Virus record (IMG/VR): IMGVR_UViG_3300033143_003837
Location: 1-33,533 of that record
Direction: 5' to 3' (one strand)
Source: a virus
Length of the DNA: 33,533 nt
Shown: positions 2,061-25,866 of the stretch, in pieces
Layout of the letters: the number at the start of each line of letters is the position of its first letter
Position numbering within the stretch: the stretch's first letter is position 1
Made by a program: the position numbers and the translations under genes
Notes under the pieces: generated by a model
Database searches by the model: none
Told to the model about the DNA's origin: nothing
Seen by the model: the letters and a program-made list of their open reading frames with translations, nothing else

Positions 2061-3013
2061 TGGCAGATTTAAGATATATTAGTAAAAACTATAGAATAGA
2101 TATTCTTATTGACAAAAATGATATAGATAGTACTGACGTAGTACTTCTATATGATAATAATGATCCTAGTAATCCTACTTTATTAACTACTATAAACAGT
2201 GTAGAAACAGATGATGATCCTTCTTTTGGAGATTCATATCTTTTTTCTTATACTGCTGTAGCTAATAAACCTGGAGTATTCTCATTTTTCTACACGACAA
2301 GAGATCTCTCCAACAATGAGGGCAGTATAGCTTCTTCACTTTCTCAGGAAATATGTTTAACTCCTCAAGCGCCTAGTGTATTATTATTTGATGATTTAAT
2401 TTTTGGAGGAAATACTTCAGGAGATTTTAGTTCAGAAGAAGAGTTCCAAACAGTATTCCATTATGAGATTTCAAATATTTCAAATATAGAAATAGATGGT
2501 GACTACGCTATAGATGATACAGATATAGGAGTAGATACTCCGTCAGATGGAGACTACATCTATTATAGAACGTATACTAATACTACCTGCTCTACAGAGA
2601 GTGCTGACAGTGATGACTTAGCTATTGTTATAGATACATCTGTCCCATCTCAAGTACCTCTTGCAGATGCTACTAACGTATTCTTAGATAACTCTATTGA
2701 CGGATCATTTTTGCTGAGATGGAACTACAATGATCCTACAGGAGATCCTATTGATTCATTTAACATATATGTTGATAGTGATGGAGATCCTAGTGCGGAT
2801 AATTTTACTTTAGATGGCACTGCAAATTTCCATACTATTACAAACCAATTTACTTACACAACTACGACTAATCCTGATGGATTATTTGTTTATTACAAAA
2901 TCGTACCTGTCTCTGGTGTAAATGAAAGAGATAATGATGTTATTATTTCAGGGATTGCTGATGCAAACCCTCCAGTCGTAGTGAACCAAGAAATGACTTT
3001 AACAATACTTTAA
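2060..3013 (+). CDS. Beta-rich (Fn3/Ig-like) tail protein
   Basis: 317 residues, with no Cys cluster or membrane segment, rich in Asp, Ser, Thr and Tyr. The sequence falls into about three segments of roughly 100 residues (near 1-100, 100-195 and 195-310). Each has alternating hydrophobic strands and Pro/Asp turns; the third has the pattern of an Fn3 domain (FLLRWNYNDPTGDPIDSFNIYVDSD is its core, around residues 213-237, given here as a position guide). It starts on the overlapping stop of the 31-residue peptide and is the last gene of the rightward tail block, before a terminator-like hairpin. A role as a tail-tip appendage or adhesin is inferred from fold type and position. Confidence 0.6.
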   Translation: MADLRYISKNYRIDILIDKNDIDSTDVVLLYDNNDPSNPTLLTTINSVETDDDPSFGDSYLFSYTAVANKPGVFSFFYTTRDLSNNEGSIASSLSQEICLTPQAPSVLLFDDLIFGGNTSGDFSSEEEFQTVFHYEISNISNIEIDGDYAIDDTDIGVDTPSDGDYIYYRTYTNTTCSTESADSDDLAIVIDTSVPSQVPLADATNVFLDNSIDGSFLLRWNYNDPTGDPIDSFNIYVDSDGDPSADNFTLDGTANFHTITNQFTYTTTTNPDGLFVYYKIVPVSGVNERDNDVIISGIADANPPVVVNQEMTLTIL

Positions 3014-3015
3014 TT

Positions 3016-3088
3016 TTTGCCAATAGGCAAATTCTTTTCTCTCTCCTATGCGGATAGGTGCTTTTTTTATAGGCCTATCCGTATTTTT
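3016..3088 (+). terminator. Two hairpins ending the tail transcript
   Basis: First hairpin: TTTGCC (3016-3021), loop AATA, GGCAAA (3026-3031), followed by TTCTTTTCT. Second: CGGATAGG (3051-3058) paired with CCTATCCG (3074-3081) over a 15-base loop, followed by TATTTTT. The U-run lies only on the rightward side, so this would end rightward transcription from the tail genes. The loop of the second hairpin is long, so strength is uncertain. Confidence 0.55.
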
Positions 3089-3099
3089 AATAAAGGAAT

Positions 3100-3128
3100 A
3101 TATCTTTTTTTCTCGAAATAAAAGATAT
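3100..3128 (+). promoter_or_regulatory. Inverted repeat over the start codon of the sigma-like gene
   Basis: ATATCTTTT (3100-3108) and AAAAGATAT (3120-3128) form a perfect 9-bp inverted repeat around an 11-base centre. The right arm covers the first two bases of the ATG at 3127 and the only purine-rich stretch upstream of it. As RNA it would hide the start codon; as DNA it could be a dyad operator. No good Shine-Dalgarno site is otherwise present. Confidence 0.45.
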
Positions 3129-3732
3129 GAGAAAAGAAAATAAACATCCTAATAATATTGTACCTACTCAACATGATCTAGATATACTTGACATGGCCGT
3201 ATTTTCTTATATAAAAAAGTATACTAATCATGCATCTTACAATGATCTAATAGGTGATTCTTATATTAGACTAATAGAGATCCTAGAAGAATATGATCCA
3301 AGTAAATCTAATAACAAAGATGCTTATATCATTCTTAAAATAAAATGGCATCTTTCAGATCTCCGCAGAAAAAAATTTAAAACAAGAAGAAAAACCAAAT
3401 TAAAGATATATTCTCTTAATGACACCTTAGATGAAGAGAATGAGTACCTCATAATGTTAGAGAGTAGTGATAAAACTATGGAAGATATCCTTTATGAGCA
3501 ACAGATTGTTAGGATAGTTAAACAAACTTTTGGAAAGATAAAGAAAAAGCGAAAGAATGATTGGAGTGGTAGAGATATGTTTGATGCTCTTATGTTGAGA
3601 ATGGAAGGATATACCTACAAAGAGATAGGAAATATGACTGGTTATTCTGAAAGTAGAATTTCACAGATATTCTCTACTATAATTATGCCTAAGTTAGAAG
3701 AGGTTCGTAATAAGCTCTTAAATGCTCTGTAG
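3127..3732 (+). CDS. Sigma-70-like transcription factor (rightward)
   Basis: 201 residues, the size of a small sigma factor. Residues about 21-82 match region 2: a helix with YNDLIGDSYIRLIEILEEYD, then an aromatic and basic stretch ending in DLRRKK. Residues about 151-196 form a region 4-like helix-turn-helix (YKEIGNMTGYSESRISQIFS). A lysine-rich linker lies between them. Sigma factors bind host core RNA polymerase and redirect it to particular promoters; phage versions usually switch on middle or late genes. The gene follows the tail block after a terminator-like hairpin and so needs its own promoter or read-through. Its start codon lies in an inverted repeat. A sigma-like role is well supported; its target promoters are unknown. 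Confidence 0.8.
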   Translation: MRKENKHPNNIVPTQHDLDILDMAVFSYIKKYTNHASYNDLIGDSYIRLIEILEEYDPSKSNNKDAYIILKIKWHLSDLRRKKFKTRRKTKLKIYSLNDTLDEENEYLIMLESSDKTMEDILYEQQIVRIVKQTFGKIKKKRKNDWSGRDMFDALMLRMEGYTYKEIGNMTGYSESRISQIFSTIIMPKLEEVRNKLLNAL

Positions 3733-3803
3733 TGGATTTTATACTGTCCCTATGTAATTACACCTATTTCTTGAGATCGTGCCTGTATGCCTATGTGTTG
3801 GCC

Positions 3804-4745
3804 TTAGCCGTACCAACTGGGGTTATCTTTTACTATCTCTGCTTGTATTTCTTTAAACTTTCCTTTTATTCTTACTAAAAGATTATCTGCTGACTTATAA
3901 TCTTTTAGATTATATTTGTCTATTAGATCATTATATGAAAAACTATTAATGTTATGATCGTACCATATGTTATAATAATCTTTCCCCTTAAACCTCTTTG
4001 ATGACTCAGATTTTATGATACTTTTCTCTATAAATTTCTTTTTTATTATTTTCTGTAAATAATCTGCATCTAATTTTAGACTAGGATCTTCTTCCTTACT
4101 ATATGATATAGAAGTTACTAGACTATCATCTTCATCTTTATTTTCCGCATTAAGAGATCTTATTTTAAGTCCATTCTTAATATGTTTTGCTTGCTCTGTG
4201 CAATTATATTTACGCATTCCCCCATATTTTAGACTCAAAAAGAAAAATGCTCCCTCTGGAATTGAATCTTTATCTTTTTTTGCTTTCCATGCTCTGGCTG
4301 TTTCTAGTAGGCAAACCCACGCTTCCCCTATCATCTCATCTTTTTGTTTTCTAAATTTCCAGCAGTGCTTTGCTAAAGATATATGCATCCATTCGATTTG
4401 CTCTTCTGTAGGTTCTACTTTTCTTTCATCTAATCTATTCTGGAGGCATGTCTTGAAGGATGCGTATTTATTAATACTTTTGGACAGTCTATGATATGCT
4501 TTATTATATGGCTTGCGTTTTATAGATATCTCTTCTTTATGTTCTTCACGATATGCTTTATTATATTCTTTTCTTTTTATTTTAACTTCTGGTTTACTTG
4601 CCCATACCCTATTTCTCTCTCTTAATATTTCACCATTCTTTTTGTAATTTTCTTTTCTCTTTTGTGCAAGCTTCTCTTTATTTTTTAGGCGATAAGCTGC
4701 TGATACTTTTCTATTTTGTTCTTTTCTTTTATCTGAGTTAGCCAT
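3804..4745 (-). CDS. Sigma-like protein with basic endonuclease-type repeats
   Basis: 313 residues. Residues about 1-90 are a run of basic repeats with periodic YxxxNKEK/YNKAYxxx patterns, like the basic N-terminal segments found in many phage HNH and homing endonucleases. Residues about 119-181 resemble sigma region 2 (HISLAKHCWKFRKQKDEMIG followed by an EAWVCLLETA helix and a Phe-rich core). Residues about 258-305 resemble a region 4 helix-turn-helix. No HNH or GIY-YIG catalytic residues are present. The gene lies beyond the leftward operon terminator and starts at an ATG with no Shine-Dalgarno site, with only a TATA-like stretch (4749-4754) just upstream, so it may be separately transcribed. 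It converges on the rightward sigma-like gene. The sigma assignment here is weaker than for 3127-3732. Confidence 0.55.
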   Translation of the reverse strand: MANSDKRKEQNRKVSAAYRLKNKEKLAQKRKENYKKNGEILRERNRVWASKPEVKIKRKEYNKAYREEHKEEISIKRKPYNKAYHRLSKSINKYASFKTCLQNRLDERKVEPTEEQIEWMHISLAKHCWKFRKQKDEMIGEAWVCLLETARAWKAKKDKDSIPEGAFFFLSLKYGGMRKYNCTEQAKHIKNGLKIRSLNAENKDEDDSLVTSISYSKEEDPSLKLDADYLQKIIKKKFIEKSIIKSESSKRFKGKDYYNIWYDHNINSFSYNDLIDKYNLKDYKSADNLLVRIKGKFKEIQAEIVKDNPSWYG

Positions 4746-4763
4746 AGTTATATATCGAAATTT

Positions 4764-4809
4764 TTAAAAAGAAAAGCCAGCCAGAGCGGCTCTAGTGCTC
4801 TGACTGGCT
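4764..4809 (-). terminator. Strong leftward intrinsic terminator
   Basis: Read leftward, AGCCAG-T-CAGAGC pairs with GCTCTG-G-CTGGCT over a 9-base loop (arms 4804-4809/4797-4803 and 4775-4787), with the central T-G as a wobble pair, giving 13 paired positions. A TTTTCTTTTT run follows at 4765-4774. On the rightward strand the same position is an A-C mismatch, so the signal belongs to the leftward transcript. It closes the long leftward operon after the gene at 4842. Confidence 0.88.
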
Positions 4810-4841
4810 AAAGGAAAATAATCTTGGCTTAAGATTATTAA

Positions 4842-5372
4842 TTATCTTACTAAATTCTTCTTAGTAACTTCTTCCCAGTCACTAAGAATTTTATATACAT
4901 ATTGTGCAGGATGATCTTCATTTTGAGAATCTTTAACTGCTTTAGAACATATGTGAGAATATTCTGTAGAACCGATTACTCTATTATATGTTAAAATATA
5001 CGGGAACGTTTTTCCTTCTGGATCTGTATTTTTAAATACTTCCATACAAACATATAGATTACAACCTCCTGGATCGTCTATATTCCCTGTATATATTTCT
5101 TTTGTAAAGGGAGCTATATTATCCCTACTAACGTTCATCGCCACTTTTATTGTATCTTGTGTGTTAAAATATCTTCTGTCTATCTTATTCATTCTATCTA
5201 ATATTTTTTCTTGTACTTCTTTATCGTCATCTCCTTTTGTAACAACTACTTCCTCCTGTTTTAATTTAGCATTCTCAATATCTTTTTCTAATATCATAGT
5301 TATCATTTTCCTACCTTCAACTACTGTTCTTACTCTAAACATCTTTTTATCTTTATCATAATCAATAATCAT
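4842..5372 (-). CDS. Hypothetical protein, last gene of the leftward operon
   Basis: 176 residues, soluble and charged, with no recognised domain. The first ~36 residues (IDYDKDKKMFRVRTVVEG and onward) resemble the N-terminus of the 71-residue protein at 8129-8344 (IDHNKEKKMFRI...), suggesting a shared small domain used with two different tails. Residues 40-65 are highly charged; the C-terminal half is a mixed alpha/beta-looking segment with several Cys and Tyr. It has a strong AGGAG site (ATAGGAGAAAAGAA before the ATG) and is followed by the terminator at 4764-4809. Confidence 0.75.
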   Translation of the reverse strand: MIIDYDKDKKMFRVRTVVEGRKMITMILEKDIENAKLKQEEVVVTKGDDDKEVQEKILDRMNKIDRRYFNTQDTIKVAMNVSRDNIAPFTKEIYTGNIDDPGGCNLYVCMEVFKNTDPEGKTFPYILTYNRVIGSTEYSHICSKAVKDSQNEDHPAQYVYKILSDWEEVTKKNLVR

Positions 5373-5397
5373 TTCTTTTCTCCTATAATTTTATGAT

Positions 5398-5550
5398 TCA
5401 ATTCATTAGTTCTGACACATCTATGTCGGATTCGAGAATAAACGTCCATAGTTTATTATAGTCCTTCTCAAGCTTCTCAATGTATCTTGCTCTCTCTATC
5501 CTCTTATCTTTAATTATCTCGTCCATCCTCTTTATTGATATTTCTCTCAT
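5398..5550 (-). CDS. 50-residue helical peptide
   Basis: An ATG at 5550 with AAAGGAGACAAG upstream opens a frame of 50 codons ending in TGA at 5398-5400, 25 bases before the next gene's start. The product (beginning MREISIKRMDEIIKDKR) is strongly amphipathic and charged, likely a single long helix or coiled coil with an acidic end. Its ribosome site and fit between neighbouring genes make it likely to be expressed. No function is recognised. Confidence 0.65.
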   Translation of the reverse strand: MREISIKRMDEIIKDKRIERARYIEKLEKDYNKLWTFILESDIDVSELMN

Positions 5551-5647
5551 TTCTTGTCTCCTTTAGTTAGTTAATACTATCTGTTTCCAACACTACTTCT
5601 TAAATCCTTTTTATTTTTTATTTATTTTTATTTATCGGCAAATAATA

Positions 5648-5675
5648 TTATAAGTCTAATATCTCAAATCTATCT
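5648..5675 (-). repeat. 28-bp gene-end repeat, copy 2
   Basis: Matches 5966-5993 with one mismatch. Each copy encodes DRFEILDL and the TAA stop, at the ends of two otherwise unrelated genes. The two copies bracket the whole 5648-5953 gene. Confidence 0.9.
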
Positions 5676-5953
5676 TCTACTGGATCTGTCTTTTCATCTG
5701 CTATATGTGAGAACATGTAATTTATTTTGTTAACAGGATCTCCCCTTTTTAGTTGTTGTGGCACTCCATGCCCTGTCAGTGAATCATAAACACTTTCTGT
5801 AAGACTATTTATTTCTAAAAAAATGTTACTACATGTATACTCTTTATTATTACTCATTATCTTTGATCCTAACACAAATGGAGGTTTAACTCCTTCCTTT
5901 TGAATTTCATAAGTTAACACCATCGAGTCTTTTAGATCGATACCTCTTACCAT
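5648..5953 (-). CDS. Hypothetical protein with DRFEILDL tail, copy 2
   Basis: 101 residues, no known domain or membrane segment. It has an AAGGAGAAGGAA ribosome site before the ATG. Its last eight residues (DRFEILDL) and about 28 bases of DNA at its 3' end are nearly identical to those of the upstream gene at 5966-6337, although the rest of the two proteins is unrelated. It could have been inserted after the upstream gene with duplication of that gene's end, or the tail could be a shared functional peptide. Confidence 0.72.
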   Translation of the reverse strand: MVRGIDLKDSMVLTYEIQKEGVKPPFVLGSKIMSNNKEYTCSNIFLEINSLTESVYDSLTGHGVPQQLKRGDPVNKINYMFSHIADEKTDPVEDRFEILDL

Positions 5954-5965
5954 TTCCTTCTCCTT

Positions 5966-5993
5966 TTATAAATCTAATATCTCAAATCTATCT
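5966..5993 (-). repeat. 28-bp gene-end repeat, copy 1
   Basis: Near-identical to 5648-5675 (one base differs). It covers the last eight codons and stop of the 123-residue gene. Confidence 0.9.
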
Positions 5994-6337
5994 CTAACTG
6001 CTCCTATGTCATCCCTATTTTTCCTATACTCTTTTGGAATATTAGATATTCTTCTAAGTGACTTATCATCCCAAATATAAATATCTGGATCATCGATACG
6101 TATCTCCCTAGTCATCTTAGTGTATCTAACATAGGTATAAAGATCGAAAGCATCCTCAGATTTAGTCTGTATGCTAACTCTCAGCAAATCGAAGCCAATG
6201 TCAGCATTAGGTTCTTCTTCCCCTTGTAGGCAATCTGAGGGGCTGTACAGAGCTATATCGAAGTAGGACTTGTCTGTAGGTATATGTTTTGAAGTCCATA
6301 GCACATTTCTGACATATATTTTTACATAACTGCTCAT
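5966..6337 (-). CDS. Hypothetical protein with DRFEILDL tail, copy 1
   Basis: 123 residues, no recognised domain. It looks beta-rich in the first 100 residues, with a basic stretch (RRISNIPKEYRKNRDD) before the DRFEILDL end shared with the next gene. The ribosome site is AAGGAGAAAGAATA, a form repeated before several genes of this operon. Twelve bases separate its stop from the next start. Function unknown. Confidence 0.75.
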   Translation of the reverse strand: MSSYVKIYVRNVLWTSKHIPTDKSYFDIALYSPSDCLQGEEEPNADIGFDLLRVSIQTKSEDAFDLYTYVRYTKMTREIRIDDPDIYIWDDKSLRRISNIPKEYRKNRDDIGAVRDRFEILDL

Positions 6338-6354
6338 TATTCTTTCTCCTTTTT

Positions 6355-6410
6355 AATTCTCCCATTACCTTTGCAATTCTCCCATTACCTTTGCAATTCT
6401 CCCATTACCT
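6355..6410 (-). repeat. 20-bp tandem repeat, 2.8 units
   Basis: The unit on the top strand is AATTCTCCCATTACCTTTGC at 6355-6374 and 6375-6394, with a 16-base partial unit at 6395-6410. It overlaps the last codons and stop of the gene at 6385-6696. Because 20 is not a multiple of three, each extra unit shifts frame and brings a stop, so the repeat has grown into the intergenic space without lengthening the protein. Each unit carries a TAATG stop-start on the leftward strand. Confidence 0.92.
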
Positions 6411-6696
6411 CTATCGTTTTATCATTATGTTTTTTAATTTTCTTTATACCTACTAGATATCCGTGTCTATAATATGGTTCTCCAGAAGTTTTAATATTCA
6501 TACAAAGCTCAATTGATAATCCACTCTTTTTCATATTTTTTAATTCTTTTTTATATTTTTTATCTATTATAAAACTAACTGAAACAGGGCCATATTCTAA
6601 GAGGTAGGGGGTGACAGTCTCTATCATGGATTCTACCTCGATAGGTATCTTTTCTTTTCCTAAATAACTTTTTTGTACCATTTTTTCATTAACCAT
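6385..6696 (-). CDS. Hypothetical 103-residue protein
   Basis: 103 residues, basic C-terminal half, no recognised domain. The start ATG at 6696 overlaps the stop of the preceding gene by eight bases (ATGGTTAA), so the two are probably translationally coupled. The coding end lies inside a 20-bp tandem repeat: the last codons (MGELQR then stop) are one repeat unit. Function unknown. Confidence 0.72.
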   Translation of the reverse strand: MVNEKMVQKSYLGKEKIPIEVESMIETVTPYLLEYGPVSVSFIIDKKYKKELKNMKKSGLSIELCMNIKTSGEPYYRHGYLVGIKKIKKHNDKTIEVMGELQR

Positions 6697-7165
6697 TATT
6701 TTTCTCCTTTTCCAAAAAAATGTCTAAACTTTTTTTCATATTATTTACAACCTCTTGTAATACATCTCTTGCGTCTTCCATGCTATATTGCTTAGCAAAA
6801 GATTGTTCAATGTAGTATGCGTATGGCCTATATCTTTTATATTCATATTTAACATTCATTAAATCTATATTCAACATTACTACAGCTTGTGAGTCTCCAC
6901 TAACATCATCTGGCATCAGAGAATGCTTAATTAATATTTCATCTTTTTTAATAGTCTCTAACATAGAATATATAGAAGGAAGATTTCCTCTCACTATATC
7001 CTTCTGACTATTATAATAATCTTTTTTTGCTTCTTGTTTGACTATATTCTCAAAAGAAGATATATTATCCATTTCTCTACAGGTATCATCTATCGATTCC
7101 TTAAATTTCTTGGTTGCTACTGCTCCCCAATTTTTTTCTTTTATTATTCCTGTAAATTCATTCAT
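6689..7165 (-). CDS. Hypothetical helical protein
   Basis: 158 residues, mainly charged and predicted helical, with a Tyr-rich stretch around residues 110-122 (YEYKRYRPYAYYIEQ). No catalytic motif or membrane segment is seen. The ribosome site is AAGGAGAAAGAATT. The gene is coupled by overlap to the next gene (6385-6696). Its position in the leftward operon suggests an early-expressed accessory or host-takeover protein, which is inference from layout only. Confidence 0.72.
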   Translation of the reverse strand: MNEFTGIIKEKNWGAVATKKFKESIDDTCREMDNISSFENIVKQEAKKDYYNSQKDIVRGNLPSIYSMLETIKKDEILIKHSLMPDDVSGDSQAVVMLNIDLMNVKYEYKRYRPYAYYIEQSFAKQYSMEDARDVLQEVVNNMKKSLDIFLEKEKNNG

Positions 7166-7177
7166 AATTCTTTCTCC

Positions 7178-7525
7178 TTAAAATTCTTTAGTTAATTCTA
7201 AAATATCTTTTCTGGTACAGGGAAATACTTGAGTGCCACAAAGAGAATCTATAGTAGCTTTACAAAGTATAGTTTTATCATTTTTGTAAATAGTTATAGT
7301 CTTTTTTGATGGTATGTTTTTAGGGACATCAATATATACACTATGAATATTAAGTGTAAGCTCTTTGCCATCTCTAATAATATATCCTCTATCTACATAT
7401 CCTGTAGTCTCGTAGTCTCCACCTTCATATTCTATATATGGAGATATAGACAATGTTATCTCTGTGTATTTTACTTCTTCCCATTTATAAGATATCATTC
7501 CTGCACTTGTAGTTAAATCTTTCAT
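7178..7525 (-). CDS. Hypothetical beta-rich protein
   Basis: 115 residues with alternating strand-like stretches (TLSISPYIEYEGG; ELTLNIHSVYIDVP; KTITIYKNDKTILCKATI) and two cysteines near residues 96-104. No recognised family. The ribosome site TAGGAGAAAGAATT matches those of neighbouring genes, and 12 bases separate it from the next gene. Confidence 0.72.
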   Translation of the reverse strand: MKDLTTSAGMISYKWEEVKYTEITLSISPYIEYEGGDYETTGYVDRGYIIRDGKELTLNIHSVYIDVPKNIPSKKTITIYKNDKTILCKATIDSLCGTQVFPCTRKDILELTKEF

Positions 7526-7601
7526 AATTCTTTCTCCTATTTGTAATATTTTTCTTTTCTATTATCTCTGTTTCTGACTATCTTTTTTAATCCCTCTAAA
7601 A

Positions 7602-8093
7602 TTATTCATTTATTTTTTCAAGTTGTTTTATTTTTTTAAAAAAGGATGAGCCAACCAAACATATTTCTAAATACTGCTTACCTACAAACAATTCTATTAG
7701 TCCTTGTCTGTGTAGATTTAACAACGTTAATTCTAAATCTTTATAATTTTTTCCTGGTAAAATTAATCTACTTAATATATGAGAAGTTATTTTTTCTTTA
7801 TTATGTTCTATCATATACTTCACAATCGAACAATAGTCAGAATAATCTTTTGCTGTTAGTCTATCTATCTGATTAGAAATGCGGCGAGGATAAGGTAGAA
7901 CATTCTCAAGTATTTCAATAGTAGCAATTAATCTTTCTTTTAATTGATTAACATGTCCTATCAATATCTCATTCTCTTTCTTTACTGATCTAAACTCTTT
8001 TATTTCTTCTATTTGTGATCTAGCAGTTTTTAATTGTATCTGAAGTGCTGTTATCTTTTTTGCTTCTAATGATCTTTCCTTTTGTTTTGCCAT
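7602..8093 (-). CDS. Coiled-coil protein with possible winged-helix C-terminus
   Basis: 163 residues. Residues about 1-70 are charged with heptad spacing and look like a coiled coil. Residues about 85-155 alternate helices with a beta-like hairpin (SHILSRLILPGKNYKDLELT then GLIELFVGKQYLEICLVG), as in winged-helix DNA-binding domains. The ribosome site is ATAGGAGAAAAGAAA. A DNA-binding regulator is plausible but not shown; it could equally be a scaffold-like protein. Confidence 0.6.
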   Translation of the reverse strand: MAKQKERSLEAKKITALQIQLKTARSQIEEIKEFRSVKKENEILIGHVNQLKERLIATIEILENVLPYPRRISNQIDRLTAKDYSDYCSIVKYMIEHNKEKITSHILSRLILPGKNYKDLELTLLNLHRQGLIELFVGKQYLEICLVGSSFFKKIKQLEKINE

Positions 8094-8117
8094 TTTCTTT
8101 TCTCCTATAAAAATTTC

Positions 8118-8136
8118 TATTTATTATATTAAACTT
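8118..8136 (-). repeat. 19-bp direct repeat, downstream copy
   Basis: TATTTATTATATTAAACTT on the top strand, identical to 8372-8390. This copy includes the stop codon of the 71-residue gene; the other lies between that gene and the upstream nuclease gene. The pair brackets a 254-bp segment. Confidence 0.88.
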
Positions 8137-8344
8137 CTACTACGTTTATATAGCAGTCAGAAGCTATCAAAGAACCATCTTTTTTAGTTGGTTCTTTTTT
8201 AACAAGTCTATAACCATATGTTTTTTTCTTAGCAGCTTCAATAAGATCTTCAGTAACAATAATTTGAAATTTTACATCTTCTAAATGTGCAGTTATTCTA
8301 AACATCTTTTTTTCTTTATTGTGATCTATTTTAATTTCTTTCAT
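8129..8344 (-). CDS. 71-residue protein sharing a domain with the 4842 gene
   Basis: 71 residues, no known family. Its first ~37 residues align by eye with those of the 176-residue protein at 4842-5372 (shared pattern ID-x-x-K-[DE]-KKMFR and E-x-x-I-E-x-A-K-x-K). The remainder differs. The ribosome site is AAAGGAGATTTAC. A perfect 19-bp direct repeat flanks the gene, with the downstream copy holding its stop codon, consistent with insertion or duplication of a one-gene cassette. Confidence 0.7.
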   Translation of the reverse strand: MKEIKIDHNKEKKMFRITAHLEDVKFQIIVTEDLIEAAKKKTYGYRLVKKEPTKKDGSLIASDCYINVVEV

Positions 8345-8371
8345 GTAAATCTCCTTTACTTTGTAAATACT

Positions 8372-8390
8372 TATTTATTATATTAAACTT
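8372..8390 (-). repeat. 19-bp direct repeat, upstream copy
   Basis: Identical to 8118-8136. It lies about 20 bases past the stop of the PD-(D/E)XK-like gene and before the ribosome site of the 71-residue gene. Confidence 0.88.
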
Positions 8391-8409
8391 TATTGTTTCG
8401 CATTCCTCT

Positions 8410-8805
8410 TTATTTTTCGACAAAAGAAAGAAATATATCCAACATCTGCTTGACTGTCTTACCTTCCCAAAGTTTTTTCTCTATATACCCATGACTTCCA
8501 TAGACTCCTTTTACTAATGCTCCAGCTCCATCTATGTCTTCTTCCACAGGTGTGTCGTGAGACGCTAGGATAAGCACTGACGGCTTTAACTGGTTAAGAT
8601 CATCAACTAACCTCTCGAATGCTATTCTTTGTCCTGTGGGCATTGTAGTGTCTCTATACTTATACTCAATAAAGATATATGCTTTATCTTTGTACTCTAT
8701 TACTGCATCAAAATCTGTTGGAGTTATCTTCTGATTTATTTTTACTCCACTAAAATCAATCTGCTGTCTGGCCCTATCGTAATTATATATTTTTCCTCTT
8801 TCCAT
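8410..8805 (-). CDS. PD-(D/E)XK-like nuclease (VRR-NUC/resolvase type)
   Basis: 131 residues. The core reads D31-F-D33-A-V-I then IFIEYKYR, giving the conserved acidic residue, the hydrophobic strand and the E47-x-K49 pair of the PD-(D/E)XK fold, followed by a Gln (Q59) and a helix, as in VRR-NUC and Holliday-junction-type nucleases. Such enzymes cut DNA with bound Mg2+, in recombination intermediates, packaging substrates or host DNA. It has a strong AAGGGAGG ribosome site. It is the only non-homing nuclease seen in the leftward operon. Family membership is read from the motif; the substrate is unknown. Confidence 0.62.
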   Translation of the reverse strand: MERGKIYNYDRARQQIDFSGVKINQKITPTDFDAVIEYKDKAYIFIEYKYRDTTMPTGQRIAFERLVDDLNQLKPSVLILASHDTPVEEDIDGAGALVKGVYGSHGYIEKKLWEGKTVKQMLDIFLSFVEK

Positions 8806-8853
8806 AAAAAAACCTCCCTTAATAATATATCAATACATACATATTATTAAAAG

Positions 8854-8868
8854 AGGTAGGAAATACCT
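8854..8868. other. Small hairpin in a leftward intergenic gap
   Basis: AGGTA (8854-8858), loop GGAAA, TACCT (8864-8868). On the top strand it is followed by TCTTATTTTTT; on the leftward strand by CTTTTAATA. The stem is only five pairs. It could be a weak attenuator between the genes at 8890 and 8410. Confidence 0.3.
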
Positions 8869-8889
8869 TCTTATTTTTTGGAAAAATAA

Positions 8890-9054
8890 TTAAAAACTTC
8901 TTAATCTTCTTTTTCTTATAATAAAACTTCTACGATTCTCTACAAAATCATTAAACTTACGAAGCTTCTCAACTCTTCTTATTTCACTGTTTATTATTGG
9001 TGCTGCTAGATCTTGTGGAATTTCTATCATTGAATCTTGTATCTTTAGTAACAT
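8890..9054 (-). CDS. 54-residue basic protein overlapping its neighbour
   Basis: An ATG at 9054 with AAGGAGAATAACC immediately upstream opens a 54-codon frame that stops at 8890-8892. The product is amphipathic and ends in a strongly basic segment (RRSFIIRKRRLRSF). It overlaps the end of the 62-residue gene (8984-9172) by 71 bases in another frame. The ribosome site is as good as that of any operon gene, so I take it as real. Function unknown. Confidence 0.6.
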   Translation of the reverse strand: MLLKIQDSMIEIPQDLAAPIINSEIRRVEKLRKFNDFVENRRSFIIRKRRLRSF

Positions 9055-9172
9055 GGTTATTCTCCTTATTTCTGTAACGTTTTATGGCCATCTTCCTTAT
9101 CATTTCACTGTCAAAGTTTTCTTGCTCTTCTTTCTTATATGTTTCTATACGTTCTTGCTCAGTTGTTCTCAT
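8984..9172 (-). CDS. 62-residue charged protein
   Basis: The ATG at 9172 overlaps the TGA of the HNH gene (ATGA), with AAAGGAG twelve bases upstream inside that gene, a typical coupled start. The first ~40 residues are Glu/Lys/Arg-rich helix; the last ~20 are Asn/Ser/Thr-rich low complexity, and this part overlaps the 54-residue gene in another frame. Function unknown. The low-complexity end may be a consequence of the overlap. Confidence 0.58.
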   Translation of the reverse strand: MRTTEQERIETYKKEEQENFDSEMIRKMAIKRYRNKENNHVTKDTRFNDRNSTRSSSTNNKQ

Positions 9173-9750
9173 CTGTATTCTCCTTTACAGTCGTTATTTA
9201 ATGCAACCATTTTATTATCATTTACTAGACTATCTATTTTATTTTTTAACAATGTGTTCTTTAAACATATAAATCCATTTCTGGATAAGGATATATATTT
9301 ACAAGTATTATTCCCACAATTTATTTTACATATATTTTTTAACTTTGATCTATTAATTAAATTATCAGGTTTTTGTATTCTTCTTGTAACAGATTTTTTG
9401 AATATCTTTTTGCGTTTCCTACTTTTTTTAATCTTTTTTAATTTGACTTTATGTTGCGGGTGAAACTCTAAATGACAATCCTTGCAGACAGCTAGAATAT
9501 CTTCCCTTAATTCTTGTCCAAGATTATCATAACATAAATGATGACAATGTAATTTATCTGTCTTATTACATTTCTCACATTTATAATTACAATCAAATAA
9601 AATAGATCTTCTCACCTTATTCCAGTAAGAAGATTTTAAGTATATGTTTTGATACCATTTCTTTGGTATATGTTTTGTATTTATTTTTTCAGAAATAAAT
9701 TTTAACATACTCCTATCAACATTTTTATTTATTATATCTTTAGGATTCAT
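9169..9750 (-). CDS. HNH endonuclease with C-terminal zinc-ribbon-like segment
   Basis: 193 residues. Residues 58-97 carry an HNH nuclease with structural zinc: C58-x2-C61, catalytic HH at 70-71, C89-x2-C92 and H93/H97. The C-terminal half is very basic (KLKKIKKSRKRKKIFKK) and has a second Cys cluster near residues 138-160 (ICKINCGNNTC ... ICL). HNH enzymes nick or cut DNA; in phages they are usually free-standing homing enzymes or help packaging. It lies second in the leftward operon, its ATG adjoining the stop of the sigma-like gene, and far from the terminase, which favours a homing-type role. Confidence 0.8.
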   Translation of the reverse strand: MNPKDIINKNVDRSMLKFISEKINTKHIPKKWYQNIYLKSSYWNKVRRSILFDCNYKCEKCNKTDKLHCHHLCYDNLGQELREDILAVCKDCHLEFHPQHKVKLKKIKKSRKRKKIFKKSVTRRIQKPDNLINRSKLKNICKINCGNNTCKYISLSRNGFICLKNTLLKNKIDSLVNDNKMVALNNDCKGEYR

Positions 9751-10454
9751 TATAGACTTTTCTTAAGATATTCAGAAACATAATGCTCTTCTTTTTGGTT
9801 GTCTGTTAGATCTTCTACATTAACTTTAACTGGTTTTCTTATTTTTATAGGTTTGTCTTTTGGGGGCATACCTTTAACTGGTTTTTTATTTCCAGTCTTA
9901 ACTAGACTAATTTTATTATTTGGGAAATCTATTAAGATATCATTGTTAATATGTTTATATTTAATTCTCTCCCAAAGTCTATACATATTGTCTAAAGAAC
10001 TGCCCATCTCTTTAGATATCTCTCTAATATTCAACTTCTTATAAAATAAAAGATATATAAATCTCTTCTCTCGGTCCTTAAGACATTCTATAAATAATAT
10101 TATTTTAATATGCTTTTTGTCTGTTACTACTTCTCCATCTCCTGATATACTATCTATTGCCAAAGCAATGTCCCATTCTTTTTTCTCAGTTTCAGAGAGT
10201 TGACTATAATACTTCATATCTATTTTATTCTTCTTTAGTTTATCACTCCAGTAATGTTTCTTAATTTTAGTTAATCCTTTTTTAAGATATTTTTCTATCT
10301 TTATTCCGTCCATCTTTCGGTAGTTATTAAGTAAAGAATAAAACTTACTCTGATAACTATCTCTTTCCTCTTGATCACAAATACCGTACTGGTTAAAAAA
10401 TGAATATAGGACATGCTTATATTCTTTGATTCTTTTTTCTAAAACTTTACTCAT
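9750..10454 (-). CDS. ECF-like sigma factor, first gene of the leftward operon
   Basis: 234 residues. Residues about 13-76 resemble sigma region 2 (a helix with SFFNQYGICDQEERDSYQSK, then KKHYWSDKLKKNK). Residues about 120-167 are a clear region 4 helix-turn-helix (LKDREKRFIYLLFYKKLNIR, then EISKEMGSSLDNMYRLWERI). A basic, Pro-rich tail of about 55 residues follows. It has an AAGGAGAAC ribosome site and a promoter-like sequence at 10490-10518. As first gene of the early-looking operon it could steer host RNA polymerase to later phage promoters. The sigma-like fold is well supported by region 4; the role is inference. Confidence 0.72.
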   Translation of the reverse strand: MSKVLEKRIKEYKHVLYSFFNQYGICDQEERDSYQSKFYSLLNNYRKMDGIKIEKYLKKGLTKIKKHYWSDKLKKNKIDMKYYSQLSETEKKEWDIALAIDSISGDGEVVTDKKHIKIILFIECLKDREKRFIYLLFYKKLNIREISKEMGSSLDNMYRLWERIKYKHINNDILIDFPNNKISLVKTGNKKPVKGMPPKDKPIKIRKPVKVNVEDLTDNQKEEHYVSEYLKKSL

Positions 10455-10489
10455 TTTTGTTCTCCTTGTTTAAATTATTTACTATTTTT

Positions 10490-10518
10490 ATGATATAACT
10501 ATTACTTTCACTTTTCAA
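10490..10518 (-). promoter_or_regulatory. Leftward promoter of the main operon
   Basis: Read leftward: TTGAAA (10518-10513), 17-base spacer, TATCAT (10495-10490), about 35 bases before the first start codon at 10454. The spacer begins AGTGAAAGT, almost the same as in the promoter at 12001-12029. The match to a sigma-70 consensus is good. Confidence 0.6.
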
Positions 10519-10780
10519 ATCTATTTTATATATTTTACTTATTATATATATTACTAACTATAGTATAGAAATCCTTTAAAAATTATGAAAAATATAAAAA
10601 TAAATATTTATTTTATAAGTGCTTATAAATACTATACTTATGATTATGGAAAAATAAATCTTTAATAAATTATTATTTTTTTCTCAAAACTGTCCAAAAT
10701 CAGGTACAAAAAACAGTTTATATTAAAGAAGGGACTATCATATAATCAATAGTATCATATTGATAGGACTAGGGACTAAT

Positions 10781-10883
10781 CATGTTTTTATTGCTGACGT
10801 TCGTTTCACTCACTGCAAAAAAACATGGGTAAACGACTGAATTAGAACAAAAAGCGTTCTAATTTGTTAAGTCGTCTACCATG
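10781..10883. other. Two adjoining large hairpins
   Basis: Hairpin A pairs 10781-10794 with 10815-10827 (one bulge) around a 20-base loop. Hairpin B pairs 10824-10848 with 10856-10883 around AAAAAGC, with CATGG, ACGACT and AATTAGAAC helices. They share CATG at 10824-10827, so they could compete. Read leftward, one A-C mismatch in B becomes a G-U pair. This could be a structured RNA, a transcription boundary or part of an origin. Confidence 0.55.
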
Positions 10884-10963
10884 CTCTTTTCTCTCTTTAT
10901 CTTATTTACATTCTTTGTACAACGTACAGAGAGAATGAAAAAGAAAAGAAGAAAACTAATTCA

Positions 10964-11057
10964 CACAAAATGTTGTTTATTTTGTGGGGATTTAGTGTTT
11001 TTTGAAGTAGCATGGATGCTACTGAGAAAAACGCTTCTTACTCATAGGCCTAGGCCT
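10964..11057. other. Cluster of short perfect hairpins and palindrome
   Basis: CACAAAAT (10964-10971)/ATTTTGTG (10979-10986), seven-base loop; AGTAGCAT (11006-11013)/ATGCTACT (11016-11023), two-base centre; AGGCCTAGGCCT (11046-11057), a perfect palindrome. They continue the structured stretch beginning at 10781. Confidence 0.55.
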
Positions 11058-11127
11058 CTAGTCCAATAAGTACGTCCACATTTTCTGGGAAAAGAATAAT
11101 CATTTATAAGAGTTTATAACTAAGATT

Positions 11128-11141
11128 GGTATAATTATACC
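11128..11141. promoter_or_regulatory. 14-bp palindrome containing TATAAT on both strands
   Basis: GGTATAATTATACC is a perfect palindrome with a TATAAT reading on each strand. It could be a repressor operator, a bidirectional -10 element or both. No well-placed -35 is visible on either strand. Confidence 0.4.
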
Positions 11142-11181
11142 TAATTCCTTGTAAACAGGCCCAGATCCTCTCAGATTTGTC

Positions 11182-11219
11182 CAAAAAGAAAAGCAGAACG
11201 ACTATGGAATCGTCCTGCT
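11182..11219 (-). terminator. Leftward intrinsic terminator
   Basis: Read leftward, AGCAG-G-ACGA pairs with TCGT-T-CTGCT around an 8-base loop (arms 11210-11219 and 11192-11201), including one G-U pair, then TTTTCTTTTT follows. The top strand has a mismatch there. It lies 26 bases past the stop of the 48-residue gene and isolates that gene from the control region. Confidence 0.85.
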
Positions 11220-11244
11220 CTACTTGGAAAAAAGATATAAGGAT

Positions 11245-11391
11245 CTACCAAGTCTCAGTTAGTAAATTTATTGAAATGTCAGAAGTTCGTTCAATACGTT
11301 TGTAATAACCTATTATTTTTTTCTGGTGAAAGTTAAAGATTATAGACATGAGTAATCCTATTCCTAATGTTACTATAATTATTTTATTCAT
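11245..11391 (-). CDS. 48-residue single-span membrane peptide
   Basis: The ATG at 11391 is preceded by AAGGAG at ideal spacing. The frame of 48 codons ends in TAG at 11245-11247. Residues about 3-20 form one hydrophobic membrane segment (IIIVTLGIGLLMSIIF), followed by a basic stretch (HQKKIIGYYKRIER) and a short soluble end, predicting N-out/C-in placement. It lies downstream of a structured leader (11415-11487) and is followed directly by its own terminator. It could be a holin-like, superinfection-exclusion or toxic peptide; none of these is shown. Confidence 0.68.
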   Translation of the reverse strand: MNKIIIVTLGIGLLMSIIFNFHQKKIIGYYKRIERTSDISINLLTETW

Positions 11392-11414
11392 TTCTAACTC
11401 CTTATTTAAATAGT

Positions 11415-11487
11415 TATCTCTGAGAGATAGGAGTAAAAGACGATCTGTAGTCCAAGAGCTACCGAAAACCAGTCCATCGCCTTTTAC
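11415..11487 (-). ncRNA. Structured leader before the membrane peptide gene
   Basis: Read leftward, 11487-11476 (GTAAAAGGCGAT) pairs with 11444-11433 (ATCGTCTTTTAC) over 12 positions including one G-U pair, enclosing an inner GTAG/CTAC hairpin. A perfect 15-base dyad TATCTCT-G-AGAGATA (11415-11429) follows, just before the Shine-Dalgarno site. It fills the space between the HNH-AP2 stop and the 48-residue gene. It could be a regulatory leader, a processed RNA or a barrier after the upstream gene. It matches no RNA class I recognise. Confidence 0.45.
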
Positions 11488-11493
11488 GCCATG

Positions 11494-11994
11494 TTATTTT
11501 TTATAATTAAATTCACCAAATAGTTCTTTTGCTGCCTTCTCATATATGAGATGAGCTTCGTATTCATTGGTAAACCTACCAAGTTTCTTTTGTTTTCCGT
11601 TTATTTTAATATTTGCTTGCCACTTTTTATTAGATTTGTCCCAAGAAACACCTTTATATTTACTCGAAGTATTTTTGCGTGGGGCTTGGTTGTGCTGATT
11701 CTGATTATGATTTGCTACCCTTAAATTCTCTCTTTGGTTATTTAATCCATTATGATCTCGATGATCTACTTCTATTTTAGGATCAGTTAAATCTAGTAAT
11801 TGTCTATGTATTTGAAGATATTTGTATTTCTTCTTTCCATCAAATGTTCCTAAATATTTATTTCTTCCTACATAAAAAGTATTTCTACCGTCAGAGACAT
11901 GCCATTTATACTTCATAACTTCATCGTAGTCAGCATCATCAACTAGGACAGTATGCTGGTTCCCATTTCTTTGAGTTATATTAAATGACTTCAT
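11494..11994 (-). CDS. HNH-AP2 homing endonuclease
   Basis: 166 residues. The HNH nuclease centres on VDHRDHNGLNNQRENLR (residues about 76-92), with catalytic His78, paired D80-H81 and the conserved Asn residues. Residues about 112-158 form an AP2-like DNA-binding domain (SKYKGVSWDKSNKKWQA ... LGRFTNEYEAHLIYEKAA). This is the usual build of free-standing HNH-AP2 enzymes that copy themselves into related phage genomes. There is no Shine-Dalgarno site. A promoter (12001-12029) places the predicted transcription start on the A of the ATG, so the mRNA is probably leaderless. Confidence 0.9.
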   Translation of the reverse strand: MKSFNITQRNGNQHTVLVDDADYDEVMKYKWHVSDGRNTFYVGRNKYLGTFDGKKKYKYLQIHRQLLDLTDPKIEVDHRDHNGLNNQRENLRVANHNQNQHNQAPRKNTSSKYKGVSWDKSNKKWQANIKINGKQKKLGRFTNEYEAHLIYEKAAKELFGEFNYKK

Positions 11995-25314: not shown

Positions 25315-25866
25315 ATGAATAAAACAGGAAATAGAAAAGGTATAAAACACTCTGAAGAGACAAAAAAGAAAATGAGTGAAGCCCATAAGGGTAAGAAATA
25401 TGCTTTAGGCAGCAAACATTCTGATGAAAGTAAGATGAAAAGATCTATAAGTATGAAAGGTAATAAATTTGCTTTGGATATGAAACATTCAGATAAAACT
25501 AAAAAACAGATGAGTGAATCTCATAAGGGATTAGAATTCTCTGACGATCATAGGATAAAAATAAGTATGGGACAACAACATGTTATTGGCATCAAAGACT
25601 GGAAAGGTTTTATTACTCCAGAAAATGATAGAATTAGAAAATCTCCAGAATATGCAGCATGGAGAACAGAAGTATTTAAAAGAGATAATTATACTTGTCA
25701 AGATTGTGGAGAAAAAGGTGGTAATTTACAAGCTCATCATATTATGAGTTTTTCAGAATATCCTAAATATAGACTAATAGTTGAGTTTGGACATACTCTT
25801 TGCAAAAAGTGTCATAAAGAGTTACATGAGAGATTAAGAGAATATAAAAAAATACAAGGGTTTTAG
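25315..25866 (+). CDS. NUMOD3-HNH homing endonuclease inserted in the tail genes
   Basis: 183 residues. Residues about 9-90 are three to four NUMOD3 DNA-binding repeats (GIKHSEETKKKMSEAHKGK, SKHSDESKMKRSISMKGN, MKHSDKTKKQMSESHKGL). The HNH nuclease follows at about 110-172, with C128-x2-C131, catalytic H141-H142, C163-x2-C166 and H167/H171. It lies between the tail terminator and tail tube genes, which are normally adjacent, and its last five codons repeat those of the preceding gene. The ribosome site is poor, while that of the next gene (AGGAG) uses bases from the repeat, so the insertion keeps tail-tube translation intact. Confidence 0.92.
   Translation: MNKTGNRKGIKHSEETKKKMSEAHKGKKYALGSKHSDESKMKRSISMKGNKFALDMKHSDKTKKQMSESHKGLEFSDDHRIKISMGQQHVIGIKDWKGFITPENDRIRKSPEYAAWRTEVFKRDNYTCQDCGEKGGNLQAHHIMSFSEYPKYRLIVEFGHTLCKKCHKELHERLREYKKIQGF
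25852..25866 (+). repeat. 15-bp repeat at the endonuclease insertion, right copy
   Basis: Pairs with 25297-25311. Its TAG runs into GAG to form the TAGGAG ribosome site of the tail tube gene at 25878. Confidence 0.85.

Follow-up and report, generated by a model that had tools for sequence, protein, structure and literature searches.

In a survey of 4,350 phage genomes, 86.6% were found to be without a sigma homologue, and 1.1% and 0.7% were found to encode two and three, respectively (PMC9429907). Three sigma homologues are seen in the Bacillus phages SPO1 and SP10: in SPO1, gp28 belongs to middle and gp33/gp34 to late transcription, and gp2.21 is sporulation-like; gp28 and gp34 are established sigma factors (PMC9429907). 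These proteins are so strongly diverged that the general profile, TIGR02937, misses gp28 altogether and scores gp34 below its cut-off. In phiEco32 and phage 7-11, a single phage sigma factor (gp36 and gp47, respectively) brings the host core polymerase to late promoters (PMC8948821). The cyanophage P-SS2, a siphovirus with a genome of more than 100 kb, codes for two sigma factors, recognizable as group 2 and group 3, that are thought to modulate the host RNA polymerase (PMC2784084).

Here we describe a viral sequence from IMG/VR (record IMGVR_UViG_3300033143_003837), the whole 33,533 nucleotides of which are called the window below, that codes for three known or probable relatives of sigma factors, named P0001, P0002 and P0003. 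Like SPO1 and SP10, and unlike phiEco32 and 7-11 with their single factors, the window phage would thus possess three sigma homologues, and these are strongly diverged like those of SPO1. However, the SPO1 genome is 132.6 kb long and includes replication genes, whereas that of the window phage is 33.4 kb with no replication genes recognized. Moreover, the positions of the genes differ between the two phages, and the roles of gp28 and gp34 are proven, whereas those of the window proteins are putative. P-SS2 differs both in its genome size and in that its sigma factors can be assigned to groups. With the ECF-type sigma factors (TIGR02937) the window proteins have in common the presence of a region 2 and a region 4 with no region 3; yet no specific subfamily is reached, P0003 being under the cut-off of that family and P0002 not being found by it. 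Phages with three sigma factors are known in kind from SPO1 and SP10, both of which are large, and what is unusual in the present case is the small genome and the architecture of P0002.

A complete genome of a small siphovirus

The first 114 bases of the record recur at its end as a direct repeat, and one large tail ORF crosses the join of the record (31238 to 1952), from which we conclude that the genome is complete, with a unique length of 33,419 bp. It contains about 42 genes, with PHROGs matches to a terminase, a portal, a protease, a major head protein, connectors, a major tail protein and a tape measure; a match to a tail sheath was not obtained. Genes for a tape measure, a major tail protein and connectors in combination with no sheath match fit a siphovirus, and the sequence-only reading of this DNA as a 33-kb siphovirus is upheld, also with respect to its length. 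Neither replication nor lysis genes were recognized in the complete genome by means of Pfam and PHROGs, a search for known RNA families found none, and no tyrosine integrase was found (PF00589, a search whose control gave matches in 14 of 14 genomes).

That reading had also stated that no RNA polymerase gene is present. For the host-type enzyme this stands, since genes for the beta and beta' subunits are absent and the same models match in all 14 control genomes. For the single-subunit T7-type enzyme there was no match among the proteins scanned against Pfam, and its absence is read from this lack of Pfam matches because the control of the dedicated search matched nowhere.

Three sigma-like proteins

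The three ORFs in question are present at 3127-3732 (+), 3804-4745 (-) and 9750-10454 (-), as had been noted before. The proposal that all three have sigma regions 2 and 4 is partly confirmed by our searches, in which P0001 and P0003 appear as clear sigma-like copies and P0002 as a probable and highly diverged one.

P0001 (201 aa; 3127..3732, +) is, by its profile matches, a protein of the sigma-70 superfamily, with region 2 at about residues 24-87, region 4 at about 136-187 and neither region 1 nor region 3. It obtains 44.5 bits with NCBIfam TIGR02937 (sigma70-ECF superfamily) over residues 24-186, where the curated cut-off is 42.9 bits, and matches FliA/WhiG of the same collection with an E-value of 6.8e-12. 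Pfam recovers both its sigma region 4 (E 2.6e-5) and its region 2 (E 8.8e-5), PHROG sigma families are matched as well, and WhiG and FliA are among the solved structures that it matches. Both of the regions claimed for it are also recovered when the halves are searched apart (E 1.7e-5 for region 2 and 1.2e-4 for region 4). The spacing between the two regions is too short for a region 3; hence, P0001 displays the two-domain layout of the ECF type.

With a home-built sigma HMM, for which sequences of plasmids, E. coli and phages were combined, P0001 scores 33.5, P0003 25.1 and SPO1 gp34 20.1 bits, which suggests that P0001 and P0003 resemble sigma factors no less than SPO1 gp34 does. SPO1 gp28, a proven sigma factor, was found neither by this HMM nor by TIGR02937. 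We also inspected the core-contact positions in region 2.2, which we take to be numbered as D403, Q406 and E407 of sigma-70. In the profile alignment these are occupied by D, G and D in P0001, by D, Q and S in P0003 and by E, G and E in P0002; the core-contact residues of sigma-70 are kept in part in each of the three proteins and complete in none.

Gene order, terminators and leaders

P0003 is the first gene, with a good ribosome site, of a leftward operon of small orphan genes that extends to a terminator (4842..9750, -); most of these genes have AGGAG-type ribosome sites, and by Pfam or PHROGs none of them was assigned a function except for an HNH gene at 9169-9750. Upstream of P0003 lies a stretch of about 1 kb with no credible gene (10455..11493), delimited by the ORF list, the sequence and a turn in GC skew, which is likely to be the control hub of divergent early and late units. 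The leftward operon is closed by a strong terminator with a 13-pair stem and a T-run (4770..4810, -), 25 nt before P0002. Unlike most of the leftward genes, P0002 has no Shine-Dalgarno sequence; directly ahead of its ATG there is TATATAAC (4720-4810, -), which could be a candidate promoter for a leaderless message.

On the other side, two terminator-like hairpins separate P0001 from the tail gene that ends the late unit (3016..3088, +), one at 3016-3031 and the other recognized from the sequence and fold of 3049-3088. A highly structured leader (3010..3150, +; MFE -42.7 kcal/mol, z -6.1 against shuffles) covers the Shine-Dalgarno sequence and the start codon of P0001: UUCUUUUCUC pairs with GAGAAAAGAA immediately past the start codon, and the Shine-Dalgarno sequence is itself paired with UCCU. 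Shorter leaders are predicted to form a different hairpin, in which the start codon is again paired. On this folding model, P0001 is probably not translated from read-through transcripts of the late operon. P0001 and P0002 are thus placed tail to tail and outside both operons, each lying past a strong terminator. An earlier sketch, with one factor heading the early operon and another after the late genes, describes the positions of P0003 and P0001 correctly, but it has to be amended in that P0001 and P0002 are found beyond terminators and not within the operons.

The DNA itself offered little on promoters: sigma-70-type sites number 58, against 57.9 expected in shuffled DNA, and the dyad motifs common to the intergenic regions are A/T tracts or Shine-Dalgarno matches. 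In both searches no distinct promoter class stood out from the AT-rich background, in which such classes are thus not readable, and the sigma cascade is therefore a hypothesis. The late promoters of phage 7-11 were likewise not predictable and were mapped by experiment (PMC8948821).

A sigma set that would redirect the host RNA polymerase

As the best explanation, and one that we consider rather probable, we propose that the phage redirects the RNA polymerase of its host by means of a small set of two-domain (region 2 and region 4), ECF-like proteins of the sigma-70 superfamily. P0003, as the product of the first gene of the leftward operon, would be made early from a host promoter, bind the host core polymerase and open phage promoters; its most likely targets are the promoters of the neighbouring structural genes, which run rightward from there. 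The related but diverged pair of P0001 and P0002 would be later or accessory specificity factors under separate control, P0002 having gained a basic arm of a DNA-binding type. For all three proteins, it is core binding, promoter choice and timing that we infer. We think it improbable that they constitute a full three-step relay on the host RNA polymerase of a 33.4-kb siphovirus with no other recognized regulator, in which P0002 is a new kind of factor with an HNH-type arm on a sigma body. If all three factors do work in this 33-kb phage, it would devote about 7% of its sequence to the redirection of the host polymerase, and the phage would provide a minimal system for the study of temporal sigma switching.

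A competing reading, to which we give a smaller chance, is that a single working specificity factor of the phage (P0003 or P0001) drives the late genes and that the others come from moron-like accessory genes, being either degenerate or directed at genes of the host. The same has been proposed for the sigma factors of sporulation type in SPO1 and SP10; indeed, SP10 g120 and SPO1 gp2.21 are dispensable (PMC9429907). The location of P0001 and P0002 past terminators and outside both operons, along with the missing Shine-Dalgarno sequence of P0002, points the same way. However, the reading frames of P0001, P0002 and P0003 are all open and intact, and the leader fold of P0001 is elaborate, as if its expression mattered; both observations argue against this reading.

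The origin of P0002

P0002 (313 aa; 3804..4745, -) consists of a basic helical arm (residues 1-92) and, at about 106-307, what is probably a very divergent sigma part made up of regions 2 and 4. Whether searched whole or in pieces, it has no match in Pfam, PHROGs or NCBIfam; the PDB sequences gave none either, and its match to home-built sigma profiles is at noise level (hmmsearch E 0.35-0.47; hhalign 0.5%). Regions 2 and 4 were thus not recovered by any profile in this protein, and what speaks for them is its reciprocal relationship with P0001 and a ranking of fold matches that is headed by sigma factors. On these grounds we regard a derivation of P0002 from sigma factors as quite probable.

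The three proteins had been said to show little likeness to each other, and for P0003, which resembles neither of the others, this is so. P0001 and P0002, on the other hand, match in BLASTP across region 2 and the linker with an E-value of 7e-4. Their Smith-Waterman score is 80, against 39 +/- 7 for shuffled sequences, the score of 80 being reached by none of 3000 shuffles and by 2 of 3000 window shuffles, and the local alignment runs collinearly from residue 11 to 198 of P0001 through region 2, linker and region 4. In phmmer searches among 418 sequences, the C-terminal 220 residues of P0002 and P0001 are reciprocal best matches (E 5e-4 and 2e-3), with a reversed decoy at E 0.015, less than tenfold off P0002, when P0001 is the query.

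The structure of residues 93-313, predicted from the single sequence with no alignment, has a C-terminal four-helix part of fair confidence (pLDDT mostly 72-84), with low confidence for the remainder, region 2 included; the predicted fold of the full-length protein is poor. Compared with the PDB, the 93-313 fold retrieves sigma or transcription-initiation chains at all of ranks 1-10, and in BFVD sigma factors occupy ranks 1-3, none of these matches being individually significant (E 0.09 and above).

We consider it unlikely that P0002 is instead a DNA-binding or homing-type protein derived from an HNH arm, with a plain helix-turn-helix, and that its likeness to P0001 stems from a lysine-rich composition. 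The arm does contain 31 K/R against 12 D/E residues and resembles those of HNH endonucleases that two phage contigs (L004 and L006) encode; this reading would also accommodate the lack of a sigma profile match, and the lists of fold matches include DnaA domain IV, KorA and DeoR (generic helix-turn-helix proteins) and HNH endonucleases. Nevertheless, Pfam and PHROGs detect no HNH catalytic domain in P0002, the arm being the sole part in common with HNH proteins, and the collinearity with P0001 across both regions and the linker, together with the rarity of equal scores in window shuffles, speaks against composition as its source. Should P0002 indeed combine a sigma body with an arm of the endonuclease type, it would represent a new way of tethering a specificity factor to DNA.

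Two further lines were set aside. A presumed likeness of its region 4 to Bacillus sigma-H found no counterpart in a search for TIGR02859 at E-values up to 10. A joint profile of P0001 and P0002 matches sigma at 74%, and was discarded as evidence for P0002 because P0001 alone gives 96%.

A firm region 4 and a weak region 2 in P0003

P0003 (234 aa; 9750..10454, -) appears from its profile matches to be sigma-like, with a weak region 2 (residues 5-77), a firm region 4 (about 116-165; Pfam E 1.8e-4) and a C-terminal tail of about 70 aa. Its score with TIGR02937 is 33.7 bits, under the cut-off of 42.9, for which a yardstick is provided by the 34.6 bits of SPO1 gp34, a proven phage sigma factor. Both regions had been ascribed to this protein; the match across its full sigma span and the firm region 4 speak in favour of this, with the reservation that the score is below the cut-off and region 2 weak. 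We consider it quite improbable that P0003, with nothing but a region 4-like domain, is an ordinary regulator of the helix-turn-helix kind, for although nearly the whole score comes from region 4, and region 2 alone reaches 13.2 bits (E 0.051) with TIGR02937 and scores -0.5 bits with our own HMM, the TIGR02937 match is a single unbroken stretch over residues 5-165, PHROG 1740 likewise covers 5-165, and TIGR02937 is the only NCBIfam family matched by the region 2 piece.

Relatives and further genes of the window

IMG/VR contigs were searched with P0001, P0002, P0003, the portal, TerL and the tail protein, and with alignments of TerL and of P0001/P0002. These searches yielded no relative with a gene for P0001, P0002 or P0003; scans of genome contigs gave no matches, and neither phage records nor plasmids contained a relative of the three proteins by tblastn, with one plasmid match at E 3. 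What the IMG/VR search did yield, in addition to the HNH-arm matches, is two TerL relatives, L002 (83% identity) and L003 (69%), which are short contigs of mainly head genes that end short of the sigma region.

Three genes of the genome code for HNH-type endonucleases (9169-9750, 11494-11994 and 25315-25866), of which one adjoins P0003, one has an AP2 domain and one is found amid tail genes. Within the leftward operon, the C-terminus (MEDARDVLQEVV) of a 158-aa protein (6689-7165, -) resembles sigma region 2.2, and a piece of it weakly matches the model of a type III-E CRISPR-associated RpoE-like sigma factor (E 0.0074), a likeness too weak for us to claim a further sigma factor. Finally, the proteins of the adjacent genes at 5648-5953 (-) and 5966-6337 (-) have an identical C-terminal peptide, DRFEILDL, a common ending that may be a sign of duplication or of a shared tail.
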